Positions 1 through 13,035 of a DNA stretch of 64,000 nucleotides are shown piece after piece; within the stretch, counting starts at the first letter, position 1, and the number at the start of each line of letters is the position of its first letter. Below the pieces are notes generated by a model. It did no database searches and had not been told where the DNA came from. It worked only from the letters and a program-made list of their open reading frames with translations. The stretch is taken from assembly GCF_014297445.1 (NCBI RefSeq), contig NZ_JACORU010000002.1, positions 62,001 to 126,000 on the forward strand, in the 5' to 3' direction. The translations under genes and the position numbers were made by a program. This DNA comes from Ramlibacter albus (lineage in GTDB: Bacteria; Pseudomonadota; Gammaproteobacteria; Burkholderiales; Burkholderiaceae_C).

Positions 1-228
1 TACGACAACATCAAGGCCGACACGCTGCTGCTTCGCGGCGCGCAGTCGGACCTGCTGTCGCCGGAGACGGCGCGGCAGATGACCGAGCGGGGGCCTAAAG
101 CCCGACTCGTCGAATTTGAAGGCGTGGGCCATGCCCCCACCTTGATCGCAGATGAACAGGTCGAGGCCGTGGCCTCGTTCCTCCTGGACAACGCAACCGA
201 TGAAAAGCCACGCCGCGGAACAGGTTGA
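1..228 (+). CDS. alpha/beta hydrolase, C-terminal part (5' truncated by window)
   Basis: The open frame enters from the left edge and encodes about 75 residues ending at a TGA. It resembles the C-terminal part of an alpha/beta hydrolase: a strand (TLLLRGAQSDLLS) carrying the acid residue, then GVGHAP with the catalytic histidine about 35 residues later, then a final helix (VEAVASFLLD). The nucleophile elbow lies outside the window, so the substrate cannot be judged. The last 29 nt overlap the start of relA, which suggests co-expression. Confidence 0.75.
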   Translation, partial: YDNIKADTLLLRGAQSDLLSPETARQMTERGPKARLVEFEGVGHAPTLIADEQVEAVASFLLDNATDEKPRRGTG

Positions 229-2404
229 AGTCGCCGTCCCCGAGCTGGTGGCGGCCGCCGAGCAGCAGCTGCCCCAGCAGGCGAACGCGCTTTCCCGCGC
301 ACGCACCTTCGCGGAACCCTTCATTGCCCACGAGGCGCTGGACACCGGCGAGAACACGCTGGCGCATGCCGATGCCGTGGCCGGCATCCTCAAGGGCATG
401 GGCGGCTCCGAGGCGATGCAGGCCGCGAGCTACCTCGTCTATGCCGCGCCGCACCTGGCCAAGCCGCAGGAGGTGATCGCCAAGGCGTTCGGCGAAAGCT
501 ACGCGGCGCTCGCCATCGAGACCGTGAAGCTCGTGCGCGTGCAGGCGCAGGCGCGCGACGCGGAGGAGACGGCGCACATCGCGCTGGACGTGCGCACCCA
601 GACCGAGAACGTGCGCAAGATGCTGCTCGCGTTCTCGCGCGATTTGCGCGTGGTGATGCTGCGGCTTGCGTCGCGCCTGCAGACGCTGCGCTACTACGCC
701 GCGACCAAGAAGCCGTGCCCGCCCAGCGTGGCGCGCGAGTCGCTGCACGTGTTCGCGCCGCTGGCCAACCGGCTGGGCATCTGGCAGATGAAGTGGGAGA
801 TGGAGGACCTGGCCTTCCGCTTCCTCGAGCCGGACACCTACAAGCAGGTGGCGAAGCTGCTCGACGAGAAGCGCATGGAGCGCGAGAACTACGTCGAGCA
901 CCTGCGCACCTTCGTCGAGCAGGAACTGAAGGCGCAGGGCATCCGCGCCGAGGTGCACGGGCGGCCCAAGCACATCTACAGCATCGTGCGCAAGATGCGC
1001 GGCAAGTCGCTCGACTTCGCGCACGTGTTCGACGTGCGGGCGCTGCGCGTGATCGTGCCCGAGGTGAAGGACTGCTATGCGGCGCTGTCGTGGGTGCACT
1101 CGCAGTTCTCGCCGATGGTGGAGGAGTTCGACGACTACATCGCGAAACCCAAGGCCAACGGCTACCAGAGCCTGCACACCATCGTGCGCGACGACGAGGG
1201 CCGGCCCATCGAGATCCAGATCCGCACCCGCGCGATGCACGAGCATGCCGAGCACGGCGTGGCCGCGCACTGGGCGTACAAGGAGGCGGGCACCAAGGGC
1301 TATGGCGGCGTGGCGGCGAGCGGCGAGTACGACGCGAAGATCGCGGTGCTGCGCCAGCTGCTGGCTTGGGAGCGCGACCTCACCGGCGCGGGCCCGGGCG
1401 AGGGCCTGTTCGAGGACCGCATCTACGTGCTGACGCCGCAGGCGTCGATCGTGGAGCTGCCGCAGGGCGCGACGCCGGTCGATTTCGCGTACTCCGTGCA
1501 CACCAGCCTCGGCCATCGCTGCCGCGGTGCGCGCGTGGACGGCGCGATGGTGCCGCTGAACACGCCGCTGCACAACGGCCAGACGGTGGAGATCGTCGCG
1601 GTGAAGGAAGGCGGGCCGTCCCGCGACTGGCTGAACAACGAGCTCGGCTTCCTGGCCAGCAACCGCGCGAAGGCCAAGGTGCGCGCGTGGTTCAACGAGC
1701 AGGCGAAGCACGAGACCGTGGCGCGTGGCCGCGAGATGGTCGAGAAGCTGCTGCAGCGCGAAGGCAAGACGGCGATCAAGCTGGAGGACCTGGCGGAGAA
1801 GCTGGGGTTCAAGGCGGCCGAGGACTTGTTCTATGTGGTGGGCAAGGACGAGTTCTCGCTGAAGAACATCGAGACCGTCTTGCACCCCCCGGTGGAGCAG
1901 CTGCCGCAGGACGAGTTCCTGCTGAAGAAGCCGCGTGCACCGGAGAAGTCGCCCAAGGGCGGCGTGCTGGTCGTAGGCATCGATTCGCTCATGACGCAGC
2001 TGGCCAAGTGCTGCAAGCCCGCGCCGCCGGACGCGATCAGCGGCTTCGTCACGCGCGGCAAGGGCGTGAGCATCCACCGGCGCGACTGCGCGAATTTCCG
2101 CGAGATGGCGGCCCGAGCGCAGGAGCGCGTGATCGAGGTGGAGTGGGGCAAGCCGCAGAAGGACGGCGGGGCGGTCTACCCGGTCGACGTGTCCGTCGAG
2201 GCCGCGGACCGGCAGGGGCTGCTGCGCGACATCTCCGAAGTGTTCGCCAAGGAGAAGATGAATGTCATCGGCGTGCAGACGCAGTCCGTCAAGGGGACGG
2301 CGTGGATGACGTTCACGGTGGAGGTGGCCGACTCGGCGAAGCTGGCGAAGGTGCTCGGGATCGTGGGGGAAGTGCAGGGTGTGCGGTCGGCTCGCAGGCG
2401 TTGA
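200..2404 (+). CDS. relA: RelA-type (p)ppGpp synthetase
   Basis: This 734-residue protein is a long RelA/SpoT homologue that makes (p)ppGpp from GDP/GTP and ATP during the stringent response. The order is a degenerate HD region (about 30-190), synthetase (about 230-380), TGS (about 410-470, RIYVLTPQASIVELPQG) and ACT (about 655-734). Two points mark it as RelA rather than SpoT. The hydrolase HD motif is lost (ASYLVYAAPHL where bifunctional enzymes have a His-Asp pair), and the synthetase carries the acidic EFDD motif (ExDD, residues 309-312) instead of RxKD. The start chosen is the ATG at 200; an upstream in-frame start would overlap the hydrolase further. Confidence 0.95.
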   Translation: MKSHAAEQVEVAVPELVAAAEQQLPQQANALSRARTFAEPFIAHEALDTGENTLAHADAVAGILKGMGGSEAMQAASYLVYAAPHLAKPQEVIAKAFGESYAALAIETVKLVRVQAQARDAEETAHIALDVRTQTENVRKMLLAFSRDLRVVMLRLASRLQTLRYYAATKKPCPPSVARESLHVFAPLANRLGIWQMKWEMEDLAFRFLEPDTYKQVAKLLDEKRMERENYVEHLRTFVEQELKAQGIRAEVHGRPKHIYSIVRKMRGKSLDFAHVFDVRALRVIVPEVKDCYAALSWVHSQFSPMVEEFDDYIAKPKANGYQSLHTIVRDDEGRPIEIQIRTRAMHEHAEHGVAAHWAYKEAGTKGYGGVAASGEYDAKIAVLRQLLAWERDLTGAGPGEGLFEDRIYVLTPQASIVELPQGATPVDFAYSVHTSLGHRCRGARVDGAMVPLNTPLHNGQTVEIVAVKEGGPSRDWLNNELGFLASNRAKAKVRAWFNEQAKHETVARGREMVEKLLQREGKTAIKLEDLAEKLGFKAAEDLFYVVGKDEFSLKNIETVLHPPVEQLPQDEFLLKKPRAPEKSPKGGVLVVGIDSLMTQLAKCCKPAPPDAISGFVTRGKGVSIHRRDCANFREMAARAQERVIEVEWGKPQKDGGAVYPVDVSVEAADRQGLLRDISEVFAKEKMNVIGVQTQSVKGTAWMTFTVEVADSAKLAKVLGIVGEVQGVRSARRR

Positions 2405-2410
2405 GGGGCT

Positions 2411-2427
2411 GTCATGCCCGGCATGAC
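2411..2427. repeat. perfect inverted repeat at relA/DUF3131 convergent junction
   Basis: GTCATGCC-C-GGCATGAC is a perfect 8-bp palindrome with one central base. It begins 7 nt after the relA stop and contains the stop codon and last codons of the converging DUF3131 gene. It could end transcription on either strand, but neither side has a clear T-run, so it may depend on Rho or only stabilise mRNA ends. Confidence 0.5.
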
Positions 2428-3794
2428 ACTCGTTCTTTCGGCCAACACTTGTTCAACTTGGCATAGGGGTCGCTCGACTGCACCCGAAACGGGCCGTCCG
2501 CCTGCACCGGTTTCCACAATGGCGCGCCGGTCGCCTTGAACAGCAACGCCTCGAGGATGGCAGCGTTGGTCGAGAGCGTGAGGAACGGGTGCGGCGCGCC
2601 CGTCTCGAAGCGGCCTTCGTACCACCCGCGGTCCGGGTCGTAGAGGAACTTCACGCCGTCGATCAAGCGGTCGCCGTACTCGCCGCCCCACAGTGCCCAC
2701 ATGCCGAACGCGGCACGGGTGTTGACGAGGGCGAGCCGCTCGAAGTGGCGCCCGTCGGAGGCGATGGTGTTGAAGGGATAGCCGGAGGCGTAGACCGAGT
2801 CGAGGACGACATAAGGCTGGTCCGGCGTCTGGTAATCGCTGCGCGCCGTGAGCACCTTCTCGCGCCGCCAGCGCTCTTCCTGCACCTTGAACAAGGTCTC
2901 GGCCAAGGGCTTGAGCGCGGCGCCGCCGGGCTGCTGCCAGCCGAGCTCCACGCCCATCAGCACGAACGGCATCGTGAGCAGCGGCGCCTGCGCGCCGGTC
3001 GTGCGCGGGTCGCGCGCATCGTGGCGCACCGGCATGCCGTAGATGTTGAAGACCTCCGTGGCGGGCAGCGACGTCGAGCGCGCCGCATCGAAGCCCCACG
3101 CGGCGAAGCCCGCGCCGGCGAGCTGCTCGTAGCCCAGCCGCCCCTCGGCGTATTTCTGCGTCTGGCCGCCGCTGCGCGACGAGCCGAACAGCCGCCCACA
3201 GTCGTCGATGACATCGCAGAACGCGAACCGCAGCACGACCTTGTCCGCATACTCCGCGAACTGCGGGTGCCGCTGCGCCACGATCTTCAGCCACAGCATC
3301 AAACGGCCCGTGTCGACCGCCGACCAGCCGATGTCCTCCGGCTGGTTGCCGAAGTTCACCATCTTGCCGGTGAACGCGTTGTAGGCCTTGTTGGGCAGCA
3401 CGCCGCCGGAAAGCTCCATGGTCGCCGCGAAGCCGAGCAGCCGCGACATGCGCAGGTCGAACTCGCGCGCCTCGATGATGCGCAGCTCGCGCGCGGCGAC
3501 GGTGGCCGCGATCGCGTCGGCGAGGTTCCACGCGGTGAAAACCACGGAGCGGTCGACGCCGTTCACCAACCCGGTTTTCTCGTCGGTATTGTTCTCCACA
3601 TAACGCCACGCCGTGCGCGCCCATTGCAGCTCGCGCGAGATCGAACTGCCGGCGCGGCGGAAACTGATCGCGGCATCGGCGTCGAGGGGCGACAACGTGT
3701 CGGAGGTGGCTCCCGTGCCGCGGGGCAGCACCACCCCGCAGCCGGACACAGCGGACGCGACAGCGGACGCCAGCAACGTGCGGCGGCTCAGCAC
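2412..3794 (-). CDS. DUF3131 lipoprotein, paralogue 1 of 3
   Basis: A 460-residue predicted lipoprotein. The N-terminus (SRRTLLASAVASAVSGC) is a signal peptide with a lipobox ending at Cys19, followed by one DUF3131 domain from about residue 57 to 440. The family hallmarks are present: ENNTDEKTGL (67-76), a VD at 80-81, LPNKAYNAFTGKM, GWSAVDTGRLMLWL and EGRLGYEQLA. It differs from its two neighbours at residue 90, where their M-W-D reads A-W-N, so an acidic residue conserved in the others is Asn here. The GTG start overlaps the upstream stop (GTGCTGA). It is the last gene of the nine-gene glycan operon. The molecular function of DUF3131 is unknown to me; an (alpha/alpha)-barrel glycan-active fold is a guess. 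Confidence 0.85.
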   Translation of the reverse strand: MLSRRTLLASAVASAVSGCGVVLPRGTGATSDTLSPLDADAAISFRRAGSSISRELQWARTAWRYVENNTDEKTGLVNGVDRSVVFTAWNLADAIAATVAARELRIIEAREFDLRMSRLLGFAATMELSGGVLPNKAYNAFTGKMVNFGNQPEDIGWSAVDTGRLMLWLKIVAQRHPQFAEYADKVVLRFAFCDVIDDCGRLFGSSRSGGQTQKYAEGRLGYEQLAGAGFAAWGFDAARSTSLPATEVFNIYGMPVRHDARDPRTTGAQAPLLTMPFVLMGVELGWQQPGGAALKPLAETLFKVQEERWRREKVLTARSDYQTPDQPYVVLDSVYASGYPFNTIASDGRHFERLALVNTRAAFGMWALWGGEYGDRLIDGVKFLYDPDRGWYEGRFETGAPHPFLTLSTNAAILEALLFKATGAPLWKPVQADGPFRVQSSDPYAKLNKCWPKERVSCRA

Positions 3795-5173
3795 GGCCGC
3801 GCTTCCAGCCCGGTTGGCGTCGGCTTGCGGCAGCGGTCCCACAAACTCTCGTGCGCGGGGCCCCACCGCAGCAGCTTGCCCTGTGCCTTGAACAGCAGCG
3901 TGGCCAGCATGATCCCGTTGTTGTTGGCGGTGAAGGCCTTGATCGGCCCCTTGCCGCTTTCGAGCACGCCCTCGTAGAAACCACGGTTCGGGTCGCGCTG
4001 GTTCACGATGGCGTTGAACAGGCGGTCGGTGTAGTCCGACTTCCACAACGCCCACATGCCGAGCGCGGCCTTCAGCGAAACGGCCGCGAACTCCGGCACG
4101 TACTTGCCCGCCTCGGTGATCGTGTTCCACGCATACCCGTCGGTGAACACGGTGTCGTAGACGAAATACGGGTCCTGCTCCAGTTGGTGCTCCGACCGCG
4201 CGGTGAGGATGCCGGTGGCACGGAAGCGGTTCTCCTGCGCCTGGTAGACGCGGTGCGCGAAGCCGGCCATCCACGGGTGGCTGTGCTTCGCGTCGTCGGT
4301 GCCGCGGTCGTTCGCGAGGTCCCAGTTGAACTCGATGCCGTCGAGCACGTAGCTTTCGGACACCACGTAGTTGTGCTGGTAGTACTTGCGCGGGTCGCGC
4401 GCGTCGTACGGGACTTCCACGCAGTAGATCGGCAGCGTCGAATACGGCTCCGCGCGCGAGGCGAGCTCCGTGTTCACGCCCCACAGCTCGAACCCCTTGG
4501 CCGAGTACTCCTCGTAGCCGAGCCGGCCTTCCTGCACGTACTCCGTCTTGCGGTCCTTGCCCACGAGCGCGCCGAACATCATGCCGGTGCGGTCGACGAC
4601 GTTGTCGAACTTCCAGCGCAGCACGAACTTGTCGATGCCATCGGCATGCTGCGGGTAGCGCTCCTTGACGATCTTCAGCCACACGAGCAGGCGGCCGAGG
4701 TCCAGCGCCGAGAAGCCGATCTCGCCCGGCTTGTTGCCGTAGTCCACCTTCTCCAGCGTCTTCGTGTGGTAGACCTTGTTGGGTAATTCGCCGCGAAAGA
4801 ACGAAAGCGAGCCGAGTGCCTCCACGAGCTTGCCCAGGCGCTGGTCGGCCTGCTGCGCGTTGATGATGCCCAGCTGGTGCGCGGCGACGATCGCACCGAC
4901 GTACGAGGCCGTGTCCCACATCGTCGACGAGGGGTAGTTGTCGACTGCATTGGCCAGGCCGGAGGGCTGTGTGTTGTTCTCGAAGTACTTCCACGCGATG
5001 CGCGCCATCTGCATCTCGGTGTCGGTGAGCGGGCCGATGCGGCGCTCGTAGCGCGCCGCGGGCACGTCGCCGGGCTTGCAGTCGGCCTGGCCGAGGGCTT
5101 GCTGCGCGCAGGCCCACGCGGGCAGGGCGACGAGCACCGCGAGGGCGAAAGAACGAAGACTGCTTCTCATCAT
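3788..5173 (-). CDS. DUF3131 periplasmic protein, paralogue 2 of 3
   Basis: A 461-residue protein with a Sec signal peptide (residues 1-23, hydrophobic LALAVLVALPAWACA-type core, cleavage after ACA) and one DUF3131 domain. Motifs shared with its neighbours are ENNTQPSGL (65-73), VD (77-78), STMWD (83-87), LPNKVYHTKTLEKVDY, GFSALDLGRLLVWL and EGRLGYEEYSAKG. The start is the first of two adjacent ATGs and overlaps the upstream TGA as ATGA, indicating translational coupling. It probably acts in the periplasm on, or in transit of, the glycan made by the GT2 gene of the same operon; this role is inferred from context only. Confidence 0.85.
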   Translation of the reverse strand: MMRSSLRSFALAVLVALPAWACAQQALGQADCKPGDVPAARYERRIGPLTDTEMQMARIAWKYFENNTQPSGLANAVDNYPSSTMWDTASYVGAIVAAHQLGIINAQQADQRLGKLVEALGSLSFFRGELPNKVYHTKTLEKVDYGNKPGEIGFSALDLGRLLVWLKIVKERYPQHADGIDKFVLRWKFDNVVDRTGMMFGALVGKDRKTEYVQEGRLGYEEYSAKGFELWGVNTELASRAEPYSTLPIYCVEVPYDARDPRKYYQHNYVVSESYVLDGIEFNWDLANDRGTDDAKHSHPWMAGFAHRVYQAQENRFRATGILTARSEHQLEQDPYFVYDTVFTDGYAWNTITEAGKYVPEFAAVSLKAALGMWALWKSDYTDRLFNAIVNQRDPNRGFYEGVLESGKGPIKAFTANNNGIMLATLLFKAQGKLLRWGPAHESLWDRCRKPTPTGLEARPC

Positions 5174-6510
5174 CTCGGGCTCAGCAACGTGCCGCGGGTG
5201 GTGTAGGCCAGGCTTTCGAGGATGACTGCGTTGGTGTTCGCCGCGATCGCCTTGTTCGGCTGCCCGCCTTGCTCGTACAGCCCGGCGTACCAGCCTTTGG
5301 CCGGGTCGTTGAGCGGCGCGACCGCGGCCACGAGCTTCTGCGTGTACTCGTTGCGGTAGAGGGCGTGCCACGCGAACGCCGCCTTGGTCGACACGTTGCG
5401 CAGCGCCGCCGCCTCCTCGCCCTTGTCGCTGGCGGCTACCCAGTTGCGGCCGTTCGAGTGCACCGCGTTGTAGACGAACCAGGGCGCGCGGTCGACGTGG
5501 TCCTCGGTTACGGCCGTGAGCTGCTGCGTCTTGCGCCAGCGAGCCTCCTGCGCGCGGTACACGCGCCACGCGGCCTCGCGCCCGCTGCCGGTGAAGCCCA
5601 GCTCCAGGCCGGTGAGCATGAAGGGCTCGCTCACCACGAAGTTCTGCGCGCCGAACTTCGCCGGCTCGCGCGCATCGACGGGTACCTGCACGCCTTCGAC
5701 GTCCACCAGCTTCAGGTGCGGCCGCCAGTCGAGCGCCTGCTCCACGTCCAGCCCGAGCAGGTAGAACGTGCGCGCGGCGTATTGCTCGTAGCCGAGGCGG
5801 CCCTCCTGGAGCGACTGCGGCGCCTGCCCGTCGGTGCCGGCCTGCATGCCGAACAACTGGCCGCCACGCGCGAGCTGGCCGGTCTTCCAGCGCGCGATCA
5901 CGGCGCGCGCCTGCGGGGTGTGCTGCGGATGCCGCCACGCGATGGTCGTGAGCGGCACCATGAGCCGCCCCACGTCGATGGCCGACCAGCCCACGCCGTT
6001 GGGCGAGGGCTTGTTGTTGTAGTCGGTCATCTCCAGCGTGCGGATGTCGTAGCTCTTGTTCGGCAGGCTGGCCGCATACAGCGGCAGCTTCGCGAGCGAG
6101 GCGAGGGCGCGCGACATGCGCTCGTCGAACCGGGCCTTGTCGACGAGGCCCAGTTCGTGCGCCGAGAGCAGCGCCATCAACGCGGAACCCGCGTCCCACA
6201 TCGTCGTGCCGGCGAAGCCGTCGACCGCACCTGTGAGGCCGGTGGTCTTGTCCGTGTTGTTCTCGAAATAGGTCCAGGCGGTCTTCGCGTAGCGCAGCTC
6301 GTCGGCCGTGAGCGGGCGCGGCGCCGGGTCCGCCGGAACGTCCTTGCTCGACGCGAGAGTGGGCAGCGGTGGTGCGGCCGTCTTCGCGATCAGCTCCTTG
6401 CCGCTCTCCTTCTCGATCCACCACACCGCGCCGAAGGCCACCACGATGGCCAGCATCCACACGATGGAGCTGCGGGCCTTGGCCCAGTTGCTGTCTTGCG
6501 CATCCGTCAT
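5170..6510 (-). CDS. DUF3131 membrane-anchored protein, paralogue 3 of 3
   Basis: A 446-residue protein with a single N-terminal membrane anchor (about residues 15-32), a Pro/Ala-rich linker (44-66) and a periplasmic DUF3131 domain. Conserved points are ENNTDKTTGL (83-92), VDG (96-98), TTMWD (102-106), LPNKSYDIRTLEMTDY and GWSAIDVGRLMVPL. It is the first of three tandem paralogues and overlaps the GT2 stop by 4 nt (ATGA). Because it is tethered to the inner membrane, it is the most likely of the three to contact the synthase directly. The enzymatic activity is unknown. Confidence 0.85.
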   Translation of the reverse strand: MTDAQDSNWAKARSSIVWMLAIVVAFGAVWWIEKESGKELIAKTAAPPLPTLASSKDVPADPAPRPLTADELRYAKTAWTYFENNTDKTTGLTGAVDGFAGTTMWDAGSALMALLSAHELGLVDKARFDERMSRALASLAKLPLYAASLPNKSYDIRTLEMTDYNNKPSPNGVGWSAIDVGRLMVPLTTIAWRHPQHTPQARAVIARWKTGQLARGGQLFGMQAGTDGQAPQSLQEGRLGYEQYAARTFYLLGLDVEQALDWRPHLKLVDVEGVQVPVDAREPAKFGAQNFVVSEPFMLTGLELGFTGSGREAAWRVYRAQEARWRKTQQLTAVTEDHVDRAPWFVYNAVHSNGRNWVAASDKGEEAAALRNVSTKAAFAWHALYRNEYTQKLVAAVAPLNDPAKGWYAGLYEQGGQPNKAIAANTNAVILESLAYTTRGTLLSPR

Positions 6511-8309
6511 GCAGGCAATCCCTCAGGCTCCCACACCGCCGCGCGCACGAGCGGCAGCATGGCAAATACGTTGTTCAAACCCCAGGCCACGTTCACCACG
6601 AGGTTGGGCAGTTCGTGTTCCGCGCCCTGCACGAAGACGCGGAAGGCGGCGTACGCCAGCCCCGCGAGCGTGAGCACGATGATGGCCACCTGCGGCATCA
6701 CGAGGTTCAGGAAGTTGCCCTCCTGCCGGTCCTTGGGCGTGACGTGGAACTTGATCTTCTCGCCGCGCAGCACCGTCCACAGCGCGCGGAAATTCACCGG
6801 GAAGAACGACAGGTACGAGGACTTGCCGTCCCAGGTGCGGATGCCCCAGGTGCCCACGAGGAACGCGAGCTCCGTCATCAGGATGAAGGGCAGGGCGTGC
6901 AGGTAGAACGCGGTGGAATACGCCGAGAGCGGCGCGATGCCGCTGAACAGGTAGATGATCGGCGCGACGAGGAACACGATGTTCCACAGGCACCCCAGGT
7001 ACGACCAGATCGTGGTGAGGTACATCGCGCGCTGCGCCAGGCTCATGCGGCCCTTGAACAGCGGGTTGTCGTGGAACGCGATGTCCAGCGTGCCGCCCGC
7101 GTACTTGAAGCGCTGAATCATCCACGTCAGCAGGTCCTGCGGCGACAGCATCCTGCTTTCCACCTGCGGGTGCAGCACGCTCTTCCAGCGCCGCGCCTCG
7201 TCGCTGTGCAGCACGATGGAGGTGTAGATGTCCTCGGACACATGGAACTTGTAGGGCGTGAGTTCCTTCTCCAGCACCACCTGCGTGCGCATCGCGTCGG
7301 CGAAGTCGCCGCGCAGCTGCTCGTCCTCGATCTCGCGCGAATAGCGGTCCACTTCCTTGTCCACGGCCAGCCCGAAGCTGCGCAGCGCCGCCTGCATCAC
7401 GGCCTCGCGGCGGTGAACCGAGCCGGCCCCGCAGCAGAACGAGGCCGAGCACCAGTTGCGGCGGCGCATGATGACGTCGTAGAACATCTGCGGGTCGTTG
7501 ACGAACGGGTCCTGGCCGATGCGTACGGGGCCGATCACGCGCTCGACGCCTCGGCCCAGGACACGGCCGAAGCCGCCGAGCCGCGAGCCGAGCACTACGG
7601 GCAGGCGCCGGCCTTCGGGGATGTCGTAGAACCACTGCGGCGTCTGCACCCACGCGACGTCCTTGTCGCGGAAATAACCCAGCGTGTGCTCGAGGTAGGT
7701 CGGGAACAGGCGCGTGTCCGCATCGCAGATCACGATGAAGTCGCCGCTGGTGAGCTCCATGGCGTTGCGCAGGTTGCCGGCCTTGAAGCCGACGTTGTTG
7801 CTGCGGGTGATGTAGTTGACGCCTTCCTCGTCGGCCACCGCCTTCATGGTCGGCCGGCGCCCGTCGTCGAGCACGTGCACGCGCAGGTCGACGGGGTGCG
7901 GGTAGGTGAGCTTCTTCGCATCGCGGATCGAGATGCGCACCAGCTCCTCTTCCTCGTTGTAGGTGGTGATGAACACGTCCACCGACACCGGCCGCTCGGG
8001 CGCGCCGGGCTCGTCCACGCATTCGGCGATGGAGCGGGGCGGCTCTCGCATCGGGAAGTCGCGCACCTGCCAGAGATTGAAGGTGAAGAGCACGAGGCCG
8101 ATGTAGGCCAGCGTCTCCGCGAGGGCGAGCGGGATCGCGAACCACAGCGCATCGGGGTTGAGCGAATCGGTCCAGCGCCAGCGGATGTAGTTGGCGCCCA
8201 GCACGAGCGCGACGATGACGAGGAACTGCCAGGCGAGCTCCAGGCGTGGCGACCACGGAAGTGGAGGGGGCGGCCGGCGATCTTCGAAAGCCTCGAAATA
8301 AAAACTCAA
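6507..8309 (-). CDS. Cellulose-synthase-like family 2 glycosyltransferase
   Basis: A 600-residue inner-membrane processive beta-glycosyltransferase, probably the polymerase of the operon. Two N-terminal membrane segments (about 26-40, 55-77) precede a cytosolic GT2 domain with DVFITTYNEEEE (111-122), DDG (148-150), DAD (196-198), FCCGAGS (291-297) and SED (358-360). The translocation-linked QxxRW motif appears as QRFKYAGG (399 onward), so the usual Arg-Trp is Lys-Tyr. At least four C-terminal membrane segments follow. I see no C-terminal PilZ domain, unlike BcsA, so direct c-di-GMP control is not evident. The start is TTG overlapping the kinase stop (TTGA). The product could be a cellulose-, mixed-linkage- or beta-1,3-glucan; the GH16 neighbour favours a glucan with beta-1,3 links. 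Confidence 0.9.
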   Translation of the reverse strand: MSFYFEAFEDRRPPPPLPWSPRLELAWQFLVIVALVLGANYIRWRWTDSLNPDALWFAIPLALAETLAYIGLVLFTFNLWQVRDFPMREPPRSIAECVDEPGAPERPVSVDVFITTYNEEEELVRISIRDAKKLTYPHPVDLRVHVLDDGRRPTMKAVADEEGVNYITRSNNVGFKAGNLRNAMELTSGDFIVICDADTRLFPTYLEHTLGYFRDKDVAWVQTPQWFYDIPEGRRLPVVLGSRLGGFGRVLGRGVERVIGPVRIGQDPFVNDPQMFYDVIMRRRNWCSASFCCGAGSVHRREAVMQAALRSFGLAVDKEVDRYSREIEDEQLRGDFADAMRTQVVLEKELTPYKFHVSEDIYTSIVLHSDEARRWKSVLHPQVESRMLSPQDLLTWMIQRFKYAGGTLDIAFHDNPLFKGRMSLAQRAMYLTTIWSYLGCLWNIVFLVAPIIYLFSGIAPLSAYSTAFYLHALPFILMTELAFLVGTWGIRTWDGKSSYLSFFPVNFRALWTVLRGEKIKFHVTPKDRQEGNFLNLVMPQVAIIVLTLAGLAYAAFRVFVQGAEHELPNLVVNVAWGLNNVFAMLPLVRAAVWEPEGLPA

Positions 8310-8743
8310 CGCTTCTTCTCCCGCAAAACCTTGCGCAGGTGCATCACGTTGCGGCCCGACGCGCTGCGGTATTCCAGCGTGTCGAACGCGGCGCGCACGA
8401 GCGCCAGGCCCATGCCGCTCTCCGGCAGCGAGCCGACATCGGTCTCGTCGAAGTCGAACACCGACTCGGGCGGCTCCTGCAGCTTGTGCGGCGGGATGGG
8501 CCGGCCGTCGTCGATGATCACCACGTCCACCGCGTCGGCGCTGTGCCGGAAGCTCAGCTCCACGTCATGGCCTTCGTGCCCGCCGTGCCCGTGCTTGACG
8601 ATGTTGGTCAGCGCCTCGGCCAGGCCCACTTCCATCAGGTCGCGCTGTTCGTCGCCCAGCGTGGCAGGCAGGCTCTCGCGCACCAGCGCCGCGAGGCGGC
8701 CCGCTTCCTGCAAGGTGAGGGCCACCCGCAGCCGCCGCACCAT
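8306..8743 (-). CDS. RsbW-like serine kinase / anti-sigma-type regulator
   Basis: A 145-residue HATPase_c_2 protein of the RsbW/SpoIIAB type. It shows the N-box (EALTNIVKHG, 43-52), the G1 box (IIDDGRPI, about 77-83) and the G2 box (ESGMGLALV, 108-116). Such kinases phosphorylate a conserved Ser of a STAS antagonist; the likely target is encoded immediately upstream (2-nt gap). The start ATG was preferred because it lies directly after the STAS stop. Its 3' end overlaps the GT2 start (TTGA). No sigma factor is nearby, so the kinase may act on a target other than a sigma factor. Confidence 0.88.
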   Translation of the reverse strand: MVRRLRVALTLQEAGRLAALVRESLPATLGDEQRDLMEVGLAEALTNIVKHGHGGHEGHDVELSFRHSADAVDVVIIDDGRPIPPHKLQEPPESVFDFDETDVGSLPESGMGLALVRAAFDTLEYRSASGRNVMHLRKVLREKKR

Positions 8744-8745
8744 GC

Positions 8746-9084
8746 TCAGGCGCCCAGCCGCGCCACGGCCTCGGCGCGCGTGCCCGCGATGGTGAACACC
8801 TTGTCCATGCGCGTGAGCTTGAACAGGTTGAGCACCGGCCCCTTCACGTTGCACACCGCGACGGCGCCGCGGCCGCCCAGCGACTTGAGGATGGAGACGA
8901 GGGCGCCCAGGCCGCTCGAATCCACGAACTCGACCTGCTCCAGGTCCACCACGAGGCGGGTGGCGCCGGCCTGCACCCGCGCCACCACGTCCTGCTTGAA
9001 AGCGGGGGCGACGGCGGCGTCGAGCCGACGCAGCGTCGGCACGATGACGGTCGCGTTGTCCTGTTCGATCACCTGCATGTCCAT
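8746..9084 (-). CDS. STAS-domain anti-sigma-factor-antagonist-like protein
   Basis: A 112-residue single-domain STAS protein of the SpoIIAA/RsbV type. The phospho-acceptor motif FVDSSGLGAL is intact (Ser56/57). The start was set at MDMQVIEQ, which has AAGGTGG at the right distance; a longer reading from 9114 has a much poorer ribosome site. With the adjoining RsbW-like kinase and the operon's SpoIIE-type phosphatase it forms a complete partner-switch: kinase phosphorylates, phosphatase dephosphorylates. Its binding partner in the free state may be the glycan machinery, as SypA is in the Vibrio fischeri syp system (analogy, not shown here). Confidence 0.9.
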   Translation of the reverse strand: MDMQVIEQDNATVIVPTLRRLDAAVAPAFKQDVVARVQAGATRLVVDLEQVEFVDSSGLGALVSILKSLGGRGAVAVCNVKGPVLNLFKLTRMDKVFTIAGTRAEAVARLGA

Positions 9085-9126
9085 GCGGCCACCTTCTTCT
9101 CGTTCGCCCATCATTCCAACACAACA

Positions 9127-10101
9127 CTAGAAACTTGTGGTCCACCCCAGCAGCAGGCTGCCGCTGCGCAGCCGGCCTTCGCCGGGCGCCGCGTCGCGGC
9201 CGGGCCACCGGTTGCCGGAGTAGTTGGCGTACTCCACCACGAAGCCGGGCCACTGCGGCGGCGCATAGCCGAGGCCGTAGGTGAAATCGGGGTCCCACGG
9301 CTGCTGCTCGCTGCGCCGCCACGCCAGCGCCGTGAAGTGGCCGAACCAGCCGCTGGGGTGCGTGTATCGGCAGCCCAGGGCGATGGAAGGACGGCCGTCG
9401 CGGGGCGCGCCGGTCGCGGCCTCGTTGTAGTGCCCGGTCCACTGCAGGTTGGCGCTGCACAGCGCAGTGTCTCCGTCGCCCGCGAGCAGGAGCGGTTGCA
9501 CCGCCTCGGGCAAGGCGAACTTGTAGCCCGCCGAGAGCTGCCCCTCGTTGAAGTTCAGGCGCAGCGGGTGCAGGCGCGTGCCGGTGTAGTTGCTGTACAC
9601 GAGGCTGAAAGTACCCGGCTCGTAGCGCTCGTAGCCGAATGCGTACGCCACGTCCGGGTGCCAGGGCTGGCGGCCACCGGAGAGGTCGCGGAAGAACCGG
9701 CCCTGCGCGAACCATCCCGGGTACGCGGCCGAACGCCAGGTGAGCTCCGCCTGCAGCGTCGCGCCGCGGGAGCTGCGCGAGCCCTGGCGGCCGATGCCCA
9801 CGCCACGTGCGGCGGCGTCGAGCGGAAGCTCGAGTGCGAGGCGCAGCGTGAGAGGGGCGCCGCTGCCGGCTGCCCGCGCAGGAGCGTTCGGGCCGCTCGG
9901 GATGTACGCGGGGTCGATCACGGCGGGCGGTTCGACAAAGGTGCCGCCGCGCTGCGCGGCCGGCAGCGGCGCGTCCGTTTGCGCCAGCGCGGGCGCCCCG
10001 GGCGCGGCGAAACAGGCGACGACGCAGGCGCGCAATGCAGCGCAGCGCGAAGTGCTGAAGCCGCCGTGCGATGGGCTGCCGGTTCTCGCCGGCACCCGCA
10101 T
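9127..10101 (-). CDS. Outer-membrane beta-barrel protein with internal duplication
   Basis: A 324-residue protein with a signal peptide (cleavage near ALAQT, about residue 41) and alternating amphipathic strands ending in Phe, as expected of an outer-membrane barrel. Two halves are related: QPWHPDVAYAFGYE with YSNYTGTR, and QPWDPDFTYGLGYA with YANYSGNR. It starts one base into the GH16 stop (TGATG). Position between a secreted glucanase and a synthase module suggests a porin or exporter for the polymer, but it lacks the TPR scaffold of BcsC-type exporters. No close named family was recognised. Confidence 0.75.
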   Translation of the reverse strand: MRVPARTGSPSHGGFSTSRCAALRACVVACFAAPGAPALAQTDAPLPAAQRGGTFVEPPAVIDPAYIPSGPNAPARAAGSGAPLTLRLALELPLDAAARGVGIGRQGSRSSRGATLQAELTWRSAAYPGWFAQGRFFRDLSGGRQPWHPDVAYAFGYERYEPGTFSLVYSNYTGTRLHPLRLNFNEGQLSAGYKFALPEAVQPLLLAGDGDTALCSANLQWTGHYNEAATGAPRDGRPSIALGCRYTHPSGWFGHFTALAWRRSEQQPWDPDFTYGLGYAPPQWPGFVVEYANYSGNRWPGRDAAPGEGRLRSGSLLLGWTTSF

Positions 10102-11063
10102 CACCGGCCCCACCTCGGCGCCGGTGCGGGTGCGTCCGACAGCGCCGGCGGGCCGCTGCCCGGCACGCCCGCGCCGCCGGGATCGGCATCCGTTTGCGCT
10201 GTGAGGGCCGCGGGTGCCGAGGGGCCGGGCGCGCGCAGGCGTGAAGGGATCGTCGGCGGCTCGATCGCCGCCAGGCTCTCGGGCTCCCAGCGCCAGACGC
10301 GGACCGAGGCGATGTCCAGCCGCGCGGGCAGCTTGCTGTCGTCGATGGGCCCGCCCCAGCTGCCGCCGAGCGCGAGGTTGATGCGCAGGTGCATGGGTTT
10401 TCGCAAGGGGTCGTGCCCCGGGCGCGCCGCGTCGGAGGGGTCGAAGGAGAAGACGGGCCGGCCGTCCACGGTGACGGCGATGCGCTGCGGCGTCCACTCC
10501 AGCACGTGCGTGTGCCAGTTGTTCTCGAACTTCGGCAGCAGGAGGCTCGAGTTGCGGTGCTGCCGCGTGCGCGGCTCGCTGCCCCAGTGCACGCCGGCGA
10601 AGGTGGTGTCCGGGTGCTTGCCGACGGCTTCGAAGAGATCGATCTCGCCATACACGCCCGCGCTTTCGTGTAGCAGCCAGATCGCCGGCCACACCCCCGC
10701 ACCCGAAGGCCCGCGGGCCACGACCTCGACGCGGCCGAAGTGCAGGGGCTGCTTCGCCGCGAGCGAGCCGGACGTGTACTGCGCCGTGCGCTTCTCGGTG
10801 CGCCACGAGCGGCTGCCGGGCTTGTACGCGGCATTCGGCACTTCCTGCCTGCGCGCTTCGATCGTGAGCATGCCGTTCGCGACCCGCACGTTGTCCGGCA
10901 GGTAGTACTGCGCTTCGCGGTTGCGGTGCATGCCTGTCTCTATGGACCAGTACGAGGTGTCCAGCGGTGCGCCGGAAGCGAAGTTCTCCTCGTGCACGAG
11001 CCGCCACTGGGCCGCGCAGGGCAGCACCGCCATGGCCGTGACCGCCGCCATCCACTTCGCCAT
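10101..11063 (-). CDS. GH16 family beta-glucanase-like secreted protein
   Basis: A 320-residue protein with a signal peptide (about 1-18) and a GH16 fold. The retaining-glycosidase motif is complete: GEIDLFE, with nucleophile Glu140, Asp142 and acid/base Glu145. Other GH16 marks are EENFASGAPLDTSYWS near the N-terminus and a W-P-A-I-W-L strand. GH16 enzymes cut beta-1,3 or mixed beta-1,3/1,4 glucans and some transglycosylate. The last 65 residues are Pro/Ala-rich and probably disordered. Located in the operon with the synthase, it probably trims or releases the product, as BcsZ does for cellulose (analogy). The start lies 2 nt after the phosphatase gene. Confidence 0.88.
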   Translation of the reverse strand: MAKWMAAVTAMAVLPCAAQWRLVHEENFASGAPLDTSYWSIETGMHRNREAQYYLPDNVRVANGMLTIEARRQEVPNAAYKPGSRSWRTEKRTAQYTSGSLAAKQPLHFGRVEVVARGPSGAGVWPAIWLLHESAGVYGEIDLFEAVGKHPDTTFAGVHWGSEPRTRQHRNSSLLLPKFENNWHTHVLEWTPQRIAVTVDGRPVFSFDPSDAARPGHDPLRKPMHLRINLALGGSWGGPIDDSKLPARLDIASVRVWRWEPESLAAIEPPTIPSRLRAPGPSAPAALTAQTDADPGGAGVPGSGPPALSDAPAPAPRWGR

Positions 11064-11065
11064 CT

Positions 11066-12262
11066 TCAGCCCACGTCCACCAGCAGGCACGTCACGTCGT
11101 CGTCGAAGGCCGGCGCGCCGCGCCAGGCCTGCAGCGTGGTGCGCAGCAATTGCGACACTTCGCCGGCGGGCCGCCCCTGCGCGGCGGCCAGCAGTTCCTT
11201 CAGGCGCTGCTCGCCGAAAAGCTCGCCCTGTGCATTGGTGCATTCGGTGATGCCGTCGGAATAGATCGCGAGGCGCGCGCCCGGCGCGAGCTTCACCGGC
11301 AGGGACTCGTAGCCGGGGTCCGGCAGCATGCCGATGGGCACCCCGCCTTCGCCGATCGCGCGAAACGCCGCGCCGGGTGCCGCGGCATGCAAGGGCGCCG
11401 GGTGGCCCGCCTGCACCAGCGCTGCATCGCCCGTCTGCATGTCCGCGATCCCGAAGGCCAGCGTGAGGTACAGGCTCGTGTCCTTCATGGCGAGGAAACG
11501 GCGGTTGAACTCCGTGACGATGGACTTCGCCACCGCTTCCGGCGCCGCGCCGGCGGCCAGCAGGTGCCCATGTTCCTGCGAAACCGTGTGCACGAGGTTC
11601 TGCGCGTTGAAGGCAAGCATCGCGGCGGCCACGCCGTGTCCGCTGACGTCCACCACATGGAACGCGACGTGACCCGTGCCGATGCGGAACCAGTCGAACA
11701 TGTCGCCGCCCACGAAACTCGATGGCACCAGCAGGCCTTCGAAGCGCAGGTTGCCGAATGCCGCGGGCAACGGCAGTTGCCCGACCTGCAGCTCGCGCGC
11801 GAGATCGAGTTCGCGGCTGAGTTGCGCGTACGCCTTGGCGAGGCTTTCGTTGCGCGCGGCCAGGCCCGCTTCCAATGCCAGCACGCGTTCGGCCGCATGC
11901 AGGCGCGCGCCGAGTTCGGGCAGGCTCACCGGCTTGCCGACGAAATCGTCCACGCCGGCTTCCATTGCGGCGACGAGGGACTCCTGCTGGCTCGCGGACG
12001 TGAGCATGATGCAGTACACGTACGACTTCGAAGGCCGTGCGCGGATCGCGCGGGCGAGGGCAAGGCCGTCCATCACGGGCATCACGCGGTCGGTGACCAC
12101 GAGGTTGATCGTGTCGTCGCGGTCGAGCGCTTCGAGTGCCGCCTTGCCGTCCGGCACCGTGGCCACGCGCCAGCCGCGCGAGTCGAGGAAGCGCGAGAGG
12201 ATGGCGAGGATCAGCGGGTCGTCGTCGACCACGAGCGCGTTGACCTGGACCGATTGCGGCAT
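11066..12262 (-). CDS. Response regulator with SpoIIE/PP2C Ser phosphatase output
   Basis: A 398-residue protein: REC domain (1-120; acidic pocket DDD 13-15, phospho-Asp58 in VTDRVMP, Lys110), a coiled linker (about 125-160) and a PP2C-like SpoIIE domain (about 175-398) with metal-binding GGDMFD (185-190), DVSGHG (205-210) and FDDDVTC near the end. It is expected to dephosphorylate a STAS protein in response to an unseen sensor kinase; the STAS gene three positions downstream is the obvious substrate. It is the first gene of the operon, and no histidine kinase lies nearby. Confidence 0.92.
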   Translation of the reverse strand: MPQSVQVNALVVDDDPLILAILSRFLDSRGWRVATVPDGKAALEALDRDDTINLVVTDRVMPVMDGLALARAIRARPSKSYVYCIMLTSASQQESLVAAMEAGVDDFVGKPVSLPELGARLHAAERVLALEAGLAARNESLAKAYAQLSRELDLARELQVGQLPLPAAFGNLRFEGLLVPSSFVGGDMFDWFRIGTGHVAFHVVDVSGHGVAAAMLAFNAQNLVHTVSQEHGHLLAAGAAPEAVAKSIVTEFNRRFLAMKDTSLYLTLAFGIADMQTGDAALVQAGHPAPLHAAAPGAAFRAIGEGGVPIGMLPDPGYESLPVKLAPGARLAIYSDGITECTNAQGELFGEQRLKELLAAAQGRPAGEVSQLLRTTLQAWRGAPAFDDDVTCLLVDVG

Positions 12263-12469: not shown

Positions 12470-12721
12470 ATGAGCACGACGACCATGAGCTTCGCACTGC
12501 CGGACGAGCTGCGCAGCTACATCGAGAAGCGTGTGCGGTCCGGCGAATACGGCAACACCAGCGAGTACATCCGCGATCTCGTTCGCCGCGACCAGGAAGA
12601 GCAGGCCAGGAAGCGCCTTCGCGACCTCATCGAAGAGGGTTTGCGATCGGGCGCCGGACGTGCACTCACACCCAAGGTAGCTGCGGAGTTGAAGAAGCGA
12701 GCCTTGGGCCCGCGCCATTGA
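12470..12721 (+). CDS. ParD-like antitoxin
   Basis: An 83-residue protein with an N-terminal ribbon-helix-helix DNA-binding domain (MSFALPDELRSYIEKRV ... YGNTSEYIRDLVRRD) and a basic, flexible C-terminal arm that would wrap the toxin. It matches the CopG/ParD antitoxin type. The stop codon overlaps the toxin start (TTGA), the usual antitoxin-first coupled layout. Autoregulation through the upstream promoter is expected for the family. Confidence 0.9.
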   Translation: MSTTTMSFALPDELRSYIEKRVRSGEYGNTSEYIRDLVRRDQEEQARKRLRDLIEEGLRSGAGRALTPKVAAELKKRALGPRH

Positions 12722-13035
12722 AGCCCGCGCTCCTCCGGCCGCAGGCCGAGGACGATCTCGTGGAGATCGCGCAGTACTACGCGCGCGAAGGCGGTACGCA
12801 GCTGGGCGAGCGATTGATCGACGCCGCGATCGCGGCGCTCAAGCCGCTCGAACGGATGCCGCAGCTCGGTTCACCGCGGCTGGGCATCGCCTGCGAGATC
12901 CCGGGGCTGCGGGCCTGGCGGGTGTCGGGCTTTCCCCTCCAGTGGTTCTACTTCGAGGCCGCCGAGTCGCTGGACGTGGTGAGGCTGCTCGGAGACAGGC
13001 AGGACATCATCGCCATCCTCTCCGGCGCAGAGTGA
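12718..13035 (+). CDS. ParE/RelE-superfamily toxin
   Basis: A 105-residue protein with the ParE fold pattern: RPQAEDDLVEIAQYYAREGG at the N-terminus, LERMPQLGSPR in the middle, then GLRAWRVSGFPLQWFYFE and a terminal strand with DRQDIIAIL. ParE toxins poison DNA gyrase; RelE relatives cleave mRNA, and sequence alone does not settle which. The TTG start overlaps the antitoxin stop by 4 nt, which fits low toxin yield through coupling. No frame disruption is seen. Confidence 0.88.
   Translation: MKPALLRPQAEDDLVEIAQYYAREGGTQLGERLIDAAIAALKPLERMPQLGSPRLGIACEIPGLRAWRVSGFPLQWFYFEAAESLDVVRLLGDRQDIIAILSGAE

Follow-up and report, generated by a model that had tools for sequence, protein, structure and literature searches.

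The window analysed here, a stretch of 64,000 nucleotides (nt) from Ramlibacter albus (contig NZ_JACORU010000002.1, positions 62,001 to 126,000), contains an operon of nine minus-strand genes, running from 12262 to 2412, that joins a partner switch of the serine kinase, STAS antagonist and PP2C phosphatase type to a GT2 membrane polysaccharide synthase and three DUF3131 proteins. All nine open reading frames were verified at their place and strand, and eight of them have a Pfam identity (Response_reg with SpoIIE, GH16, STAS, HATPase_c_2, GT2 and DUF3131 three times), while the ninth, a predicted outer-membrane barrel, is recognised by a conserved family and a 12-strand model; the nine co-directional genes and their order were thus read correctly in the initial annotation. 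We have high confidence in this gene architecture and in the co-occurrence of its parts across bacteria, and we propose that the switch may act directly on polymer synthesis. The features are as follows.

11066..12262, minus strand: REC-PP2C (SpoIIE-type) phosphatase, 398 amino acids (aa), first gene; Pfam Response_reg 6.7e-25 and SpoIIE 9.9e-40; metal-binding Asp columns conserved
10101..11063, minus strand: GH16 glycoside hydrolase, 320 aa, signal peptide (by eye); Pfam GH16 1.7e-21
9127..10101, minus strand: predicted outer-membrane beta-barrel, 324 aa; no Pfam match; family profile; 12-strand AlphaFold2 (AF2) model
8746..9114, minus strand: STAS antagonist-type protein with DSSG phosphosite; Pfam STAS 3.2e-17
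8306..8743, minus strand: RsbW-type serine kinase (HATPase_c_2), 145 aa; Pfam 5.6e-22
6507..8309, minus strand: GT2 membrane polysaccharide synthase with BcsA-like core, TTG start and QRFKY motif; Pfam Glycos_transf_2 2.9e-17
5170..6510, minus strand: DUF3131-1 (D1), N-terminal hydrophobic anchor (hydropathy), predicted periplasmic (alpha/alpha)6 barrel; Pfam 9.3e-145
3788..5173, minus strand: DUF3131-2 (D2), signal peptide (by eye); Pfam 9.1e-123
2412..3794, minus strand: DUF3131-3 (D3), GTG start, twin-Arg/lipobox-like N terminus (by eye); Pfam 8.1e-105
2410..2428, plus strand: terminator-like inverted repeat from a consensus scan, with a T-rich tail on the plus strand, between the convergent ends of D3 and a RelA/SpoT-like gene

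In operon order the intergenic gaps are +2, -1, 12, +2, -4, -4, -4 and -7 nt. The spacing first given for the operon, -7 to +2 nt with one gap of 42 nt, holds if the STAS protein starts at Met11 (9084) and fails if it starts at 9114, where the gap is 12 nt; the start at 9084, whose ribosome-binding sequence looks better by eye, is the more likely one. D1, D2 and D3 are the sole DUF3131 matches in the genome at E<=0.001, and the operon kinase is its top HATPase_c_2 match, with 78.1 bits vs 44.5 for the next.

DUF3131 matches above 300 bits occur in 5 of the 59 genomes sampled from the genus, the R. albus source genome counted, and in 1 of the 299 sampled elsewhere in the order; weak matches in both scans fall mostly in very long frames of ~1300-3000 aa, which we read as cyclic-glucan-synthase-like. 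The nine-gene order is identical in all four other genus carriers and recurs, with extra neighbours, in Noviherbaspirillum humi (L041), so that the search proposed in the initial annotation for this order in other genomes gave a positive answer and the adjacency is not due to chance. Because comparison of the window with the four other carriers by blastn found no flanks in common, the operon sits at different sites in the genus.

More distant relatives were taken from a scan of 84,980 species genomes, in which the best 80 of 498 confirmed relatives by D1 similarity were analysed. Counts over 102 loci exclude four: L035, L036 and L037 repeat L038, L039 and L059, and L079 is a further copy of the cluster within the L077 contig. 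In a profile scan of 86 loci, including four repeats, 85 gave a match to GT2, 76 to the PP2C profile, 74 to the kinase, 73 to STAS and 60 to the barrel. Among the best 80 relatives, 63 GT2-DUF3131 loci have 7 kb or more of sequence upstream of GT2; STAS and kinase are both present in 61 of these and are accompanied by PP2C in 60, the exceptions being L058, L074 and L114, and all three switch genes are found in 57 of 60 once two genus copies and one duplicate are removed. PP2C was counted only above 250 bits because its profile includes REC, L058 having a REC-type match only. The co-occurring loci span several phyla. By comparison, the STAS, kinase, GT2, barrel and DUF3131 profiles each matched none of 20 control regions of 20 kb drawn from 13 of the carrier genomes, in which the PP2C profile, REC included, matched six and the nucleotidyltransferase profile two. 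Chance adjacency of switch and synthase genes is rejected on the STAS and kinase result, and the conserved association expected by the initial annotation is borne out in this set.

An independent search of plasmids gave 17 records, of which seven were examined, five of them with gene annotation. In all five annotated plasmids (from Pantoea, two Paracoccus, Rhodobacteraceae SC52 and Pseudooceanicola), DUF3131 and a glycosyltransferase or cellulose synthase have a STAS protein, an ATP-binding protein and a phosphatase of the SpoIIE-family or fused response-regulator type encoded nearby. Vibrio THAF190c shows the same association by profile. A Nostoc plasmid (L198) has four DUF3131 copies, STAS and a PP2C-profile match, together with a GT2 that was matched in pieces and reads QRLRW, not QRFKY; the kinase profile found no match on it.

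The residues on which a partner switch depends are retained. Of 81 aligned STAS domains, 78 have the first Ser of DSSG, a motif intact in the window protein; all 75 aligned kinases have the N-box Glu and Asn; and the metal-binding Asp columns of the phosphatase are kept in nearly all sequences aligned at those columns, 16-18 of the 93 PP2C/REC-profile sequences being gapped there. The three proteins are accordingly of RsbU/RsbV/RsbW type by sequence, as the initial annotation held in describing a complete switch, and phosphorylation and dephosphorylation of the STAS protein are predicted. It had also pointed to the lack of a sigma factor in the set, and indeed Sigma70_r2 has no match on the contig of the window or within the cluster regions of 11 further genomes, where the nearest lies ~34 kb off (G323); the sigma target of a classical partner switch is absent from the locus. 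A classical arrangement could still be imagined in which the kinase sequesters an unlinked sigma factor, the STAS protein releases it and the operon is the main regulon, and the retained RsbW/RsbV/RsbU-type residues as well as the 14 Sigma70_r2 matches in the R. albus genome would fit this. We consider it quite unlikely, given the cluster regions devoid of sigma genes and a fused STAS-like domain that persists in a genome (G488) lacking HATPase_c_2 and SpoIIE matches at E<=1e-8. With respect to the input of the switch, heme-NO-binding (HNOB) genes occur in 12 of the 102 loci (e.g. L057, L061, L068, L075, L083, L088 and L089), 11 of which also match a histidine-kinase profile, and another HNOB gene is found on the Pseudooceanicola plasmid; these neighbours suggest nitric oxide or oxygen as a signal to REC-PP2C.

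The synthase resembles BcsA (best PDB match E 6.9e-36) but scores 213 bits against the NCBIfam CelA model, below its cut-off of 699. The QxxRW motif, which one study, in the portion compared here, gives as invariant in its beta-glucan synthases (PMC6821405), is replaced by QRFKY in 77 and QRYKY in 4 of 81 GT2 proteins above 900 bits. No PilZ match was found in the window GT2, and the C-terminal extension past the profile match is at most 29 residues in the 81 proteins measured. Identity with cellulose synthase (BcsA) was rejected on the missed CelA cut-off, the absence of QxxRW and the lack of PilZ in the window protein, and the QR(F/Y)KY signature suggests a polymer other than ordinary cellulose.

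In a tree of 199 DUF3131 copies the clades track operon position: all 53 members of the D2 clade are at position 2, all 50 of the D3 clade at position 3, and the remaining 96 copies are mainly (82) at position 1. A set of acidic residues is kept in D1 and D2 and partly lost in D3, several conserved acids often being lost across the D3 clade. The AF2 model of D1 is an (alpha/alpha)6 barrel with a predicted local distance difference test (pLDDT) score of 96.2, and its Foldseek matches at ranks 1-20 are all structures of the SGL set, cyclic glucan synthases or putative glucoamylases (best E 6.8e-11), with template-modelling (TM) scores of 0.59-0.70 by query length. On this model, DUF3131 is predicted to fold like the endo-beta-1,2-glucanases of the SGL clan (GH144, GH162, GH189 and new SGL families). 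Sequence profiles add a weak, remote link with the cyclisation domain of cyclic glucan synthase (GH189; E 1e-5, hhalign probability 97), but sequence identity among the top 20 is only 10-15% and beta-1,2-glucan activity is a prediction. Local hhalign of DUF3131 with GH144 gave a probability of 59, and a firm catalytic assignment was dropped as the global alignment was unsuccessful and the local one good only in the N-terminal part. The clan is defined by a conserved catalytic Glu together with Phe and Tyr, according to the part of the source compared (PMC12102758); the Glu of QEGRLGYE, invariant in A1, comes close to the GYNE acid when the two are aligned, though with low confidence. Accessory genes vary among relatives (GH2, GH9, OpgC, GH16, a second GT2). 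GH16 itself may be regarded as an accessory part, since close homologues occur in only 6 of the 102 loci. Our best guess is that the polymer is a beta-glucan processed by beta-1,2-type enzymes.

The barrel protein has no Pfam or NCBIfam match and none among PDB sequences at E<=1, yet its family profile is found in 64 of the 102 loci, 42 of them above 250 bits. Its AF2 model has 12 strands (pLDDT 81) and retrieves with moderate confidence the oligosaccharide porin NanC as best Foldseek match (1.7e-5, TM 0.44) and also VhGalP; the sequence carries a two-fold, aromatic-rich internal repeat (QQPWxPDFTYxFGY..NYxGNR). Export of the polymer through this barrel is plausible only. The frequency of the barrel family bears on the alternative that DUF3131 and GT2 make another osmoregulated periplasmic glucan without surface export, a proposal compatible with any model of the switch. 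It draws on the resemblance of DUF3131 to beta-1,2-glucan enzymes and on the OpgC family in 15 of the 102 loci; we find it doubtful, as the barrel recurs, an OpgC-type modification enzyme is not among the nine window genes by Pfam, and the GH16, GH9 and GH2 genes do not point to a pure beta-1,2 product.

Gene order and gene fusion indicate what the switch may act on. In 39 of the 102 loci, STAS and kinase are separated by a gene for a sugar nucleotidyltransferase with a hexapeptide tail, and in 32 others STAS and kinase are direct neighbours, with 4-211 nt between domain ends. In six genomes belonging to one family (7 of 198 matched), a STAS-like domain is fused to the nucleotidyltransferase; the seventh family match (G781) has separate STAS, nucleotidyltransferase and kinase genes in that order and keeps DSSG. 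All six fusions have the phosphoserine replaced (R, T, I, L, L and A). In each of the six, GT2 and the fusion are at most about one gene apart, GT2 being in two pieces in L192, and DUF3131 lies beyond GT2 in five, the contig of the sixth being short. A whole-genome search for kinase and phosphatase at E<=1e-8 covers two of the six genomes: G488 has neither HATPase_c_2 nor SpoIIE, and G423 has one of each, both elsewhere in the genome. In a second family, four genomes have STAS beside GT2 or close to it, and the available upstream flank (2.3-4.9 kb) holds neither kinase nor PP2C. In two of them (G408 and G516) no HATPase_c_2 was detected genome-wide at the same threshold, in the other two (G458 and G520) it lies elsewhere, and SpoIIE lies elsewhere in all four; the STAS domain of G516 has lost the first Ser.

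A biosynthetic output is the best explanation of these cases, because the STAS domain persists without the kinase and fused to a biosynthetic enzyme; judged from the sequences, we give a non-transcriptional output of this kind roughly even odds. The same cases speak to the possibility that the kinase is the effector and, once freed from the STAS protein, blocks or phosphorylates an enzyme of the pathway, be it GT2, the nucleotidyltransferase or another. The kinase gene does stand just before GT2 and overlaps it in the window, and in many relatives it is the profiled neighbour upstream of GT2, but G488 has no kinase at the threshold used and keeps STAS as a fusion, which makes this possibility very unlikely.

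In the Vibrio fischeri syp system, which the initial annotation named as the nearest precedent, SypE is a single dual kinase/phosphatase protein and the biosynthetic gene set is unlike that of the window operon. What is shared, according to the portions of the sources compared, is an unphosphorylated STAS protein, SypA, that promotes a polysaccharide biofilm through a target given as unknown (PMC8256260, PMC10120452). The comparison no longer holds as the closest one, since in HsbA-HsbD, SiaC-SiaD and BgrV-BgrR the STAS-type protein controls an enzyme. In Sinorhizobium meliloti, the PP2C/STAS/kinase switch BgrU/BgrV/BgrW governs a mixed-linkage beta-glucan, BgrV controlling the diguanylate cyclase BgrR (PMC7647112, as far as compared), and BgsA is described in the part compared as a cellulose-synthase-like glycosyltransferase (PMC5567048). 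In Pseudomonas aeruginosa, the compared accounts state that SiaC of SiaABCD binds and activates SiaD (PMC8457831) and HsbA of HsbRAD acts on HsbD (PMC7647112), the enzyme being a diguanylate cyclase and not a sugar-polymer enzyme. HmpU/HmpV/HmpW of Nostoc punctiforme likewise ties a partner switch to a polysaccharide locus with a STAS target given as unknown, but no GT2-DUF3131 operon is mentioned for this species in the portion compared (PMC8256260). The same portion cites all4160 of Anabaena, a glycosyltransferase with an N-terminal STAS domain, alongside a paper on heterocyst envelope polysaccharide; here STAS is fused to a glycosyltransferase, not a nucleotidyltransferase, and partner-switch genes go unmentioned in that portion (PMC8256260). 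Fusion of STAS with a sugar enzyme is therefore not entirely without precedent.

That the known non-sigma switches end on diguanylate cyclases, one of them for a beta-glucan (PMC7647112, PMC8457831, in the parts compared), is an argument for a further alternative, in which the STAS protein regulates an unlinked diguanylate cyclase whose product, cyclic di-GMP (c-di-GMP), then activates the glucan synthase, as reported for BgrV-BgrR. No GGDEF motif pair was found in the 102 loci (by motif search only), the window GT2 has no PilZ and there is little C-terminal extension in the 81 GT2 proteins, and the STAS fusions join a nucleotidyltransferase; we regard this route as unlikely.

The reading we prefer, with a probability of about 0.5, is that of a self-contained system in which a dedicated partner switch governs the making of a beta-glucan-like polymer and the dephosphorylated STAS protein would be the effector on the synthesis machinery. 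GT2 would polymerise sugar across the inner membrane, the DUF3131 barrels would cut or transglycosylate the polymer in the periplasm, D1 and D2 being putatively catalytic and D3 degenerate, and the NanC-like barrel would let the product through the outer membrane. The kinase and REC-PP2C would determine whether the STAS protein is phosphorylated; in its dephosphorylated form it would serve the machinery as an effector subunit from the cytoplasmic side, and phosphorylation would release it. Its target would be the precursor-making nucleotidyltransferase where this is encoded and the synthase itself where it is not, as here. From the gene set and order, the conserved sites, the co-occurrence, the fusions and the predicted fold that the sequences display, we infer the enzyme activities, polymer type, STAS target and sign of regulation; confidence in the specific STAS partner and in the polymer type is low. 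Direct control of the polymer, as claimed in the initial annotation, thus gains a pathway link from the co-occurrence, the fusions and the absence of a sigma factor from the clusters, while binding to GT2 or DUF3131 stays a proposal. A bolder version, held tentatively and at somewhat less than even odds, is that the dephosphorylated STAS protein docks on the nucleotidyltransferase and/or GT2 and turns on a widespread, undescribed glucan, that its periplasmic processing falls to DUF3131 proteins as a new branch within the beta-1,2-glucanase fold, and that some lineages have hard-wired the active state through STAS fusion with loss of phosphosite and kinase.

Several observations weigh against this proposal. 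The co-occurrence is inflated by shared ancestry, because the loci were picked by D1 similarity. In a phylum sample of 398 genomes, DUF3131 at E<=1e-20 occurs in 20, our own included; 20 regions from 17 of the 19 other genomes were taken, two genomes with partial matches being left out, and 12 have a clear family GT2 and eight none that is clear. STAS is present in 10 of these 12 and all three switch genes in only four, or in 4 of the 7 with at least 7 kb upstream. One genome (G554) splits the system over three contigs (L132, L133 and L134), with GT2-DUF3131 and PP2C on one, DUF3131 alone on another and STAS-kinase-DUF3131 on the third. The fused STAS domains are divergent: the two scanned gave Pfam STAS values of 3.4e-5 and 2.4e-4, the second under the cut-off, the STAS profile reaches three of the six, and the four unscanned fusions were identified by alignment to the scanned two. 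None of the five genus carriers has a nucleotidyltransferase homologue at E<=1e-25, so that the fused partner cannot be the target in the window and the synthase is inferred to be the likelier STAS partner here; the nucleotidyltransferase as a universal target was rejected for the same reason. The negative results for sigma factors and GGDEF hold for the clusters and, for sigma factors, also for the contig of the window, and leave room for an unlinked sigma factor or diguanylate cyclase. Finally, in Klebsiella, blocks 3a and 3c near a similar cluster hold c-di-GMP-related proteins, according to the part of the study compared (PMC12974863), which favours the c-di-GMP route.

Among the surroundings of the operon, a gene for a RelA/SpoT-like (p)ppGpp enzyme (152-2404, plus strand, by eye) converges on its end, and a ParD/ParE-like toxin-antitoxin pair (12470-13035, plus strand, by eye) diverges from its start. 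Promoter and terminator consensus matches in the window were no more numerous than in shuffled sequence, and such calls were dropped. Contig00010 of Shewanella abyssi has two cluster copies (L077 and L079) with the same profile layout in opposite orientation, which points to either an extensive inverted duplication or a misassembly. Sphaerotilus, Thiothrix, Cocleimonas, Crenothrix, Leucothrix and Ca. Electrothrix are filamentous carriers, some of them sheathed, and loci of such filamentous-type carriers are L043, L045, L048, L052, L057, L066, L071, L083 and L092.

We file the system as a partner-switching variant that lacks a sigma target in its locus and differs from the BcsA cellulose system. 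The open-access literature yielded no description of the switch, GT2 and DUF3131 combination as a working system, and a partner switch acting on a sugar-polymer enzyme is not described in the portions of the literature compared. Block 3b of Klebsiella pneumoniae, listed in a 2026 study, has a similar, phylogeny-associated gene set, for which the portion compared mentions neither function nor PP2C (PMC12974863). The cluster is widespread, occurring in Burkholderiales, Vibrio, Shewanella, Thiothrix and on Rhodobacterales plasmids. The targets of the polysaccharide-promoting STAS proteins SypA and HmpV are called unknown in the accounts compared (PMC8256260, PMC10120452); here, the gene order and the six STAS-enzyme fusions name concrete candidates, the nucleotidyltransferase and GT2, through which such a protein may act on the making of a polymer.

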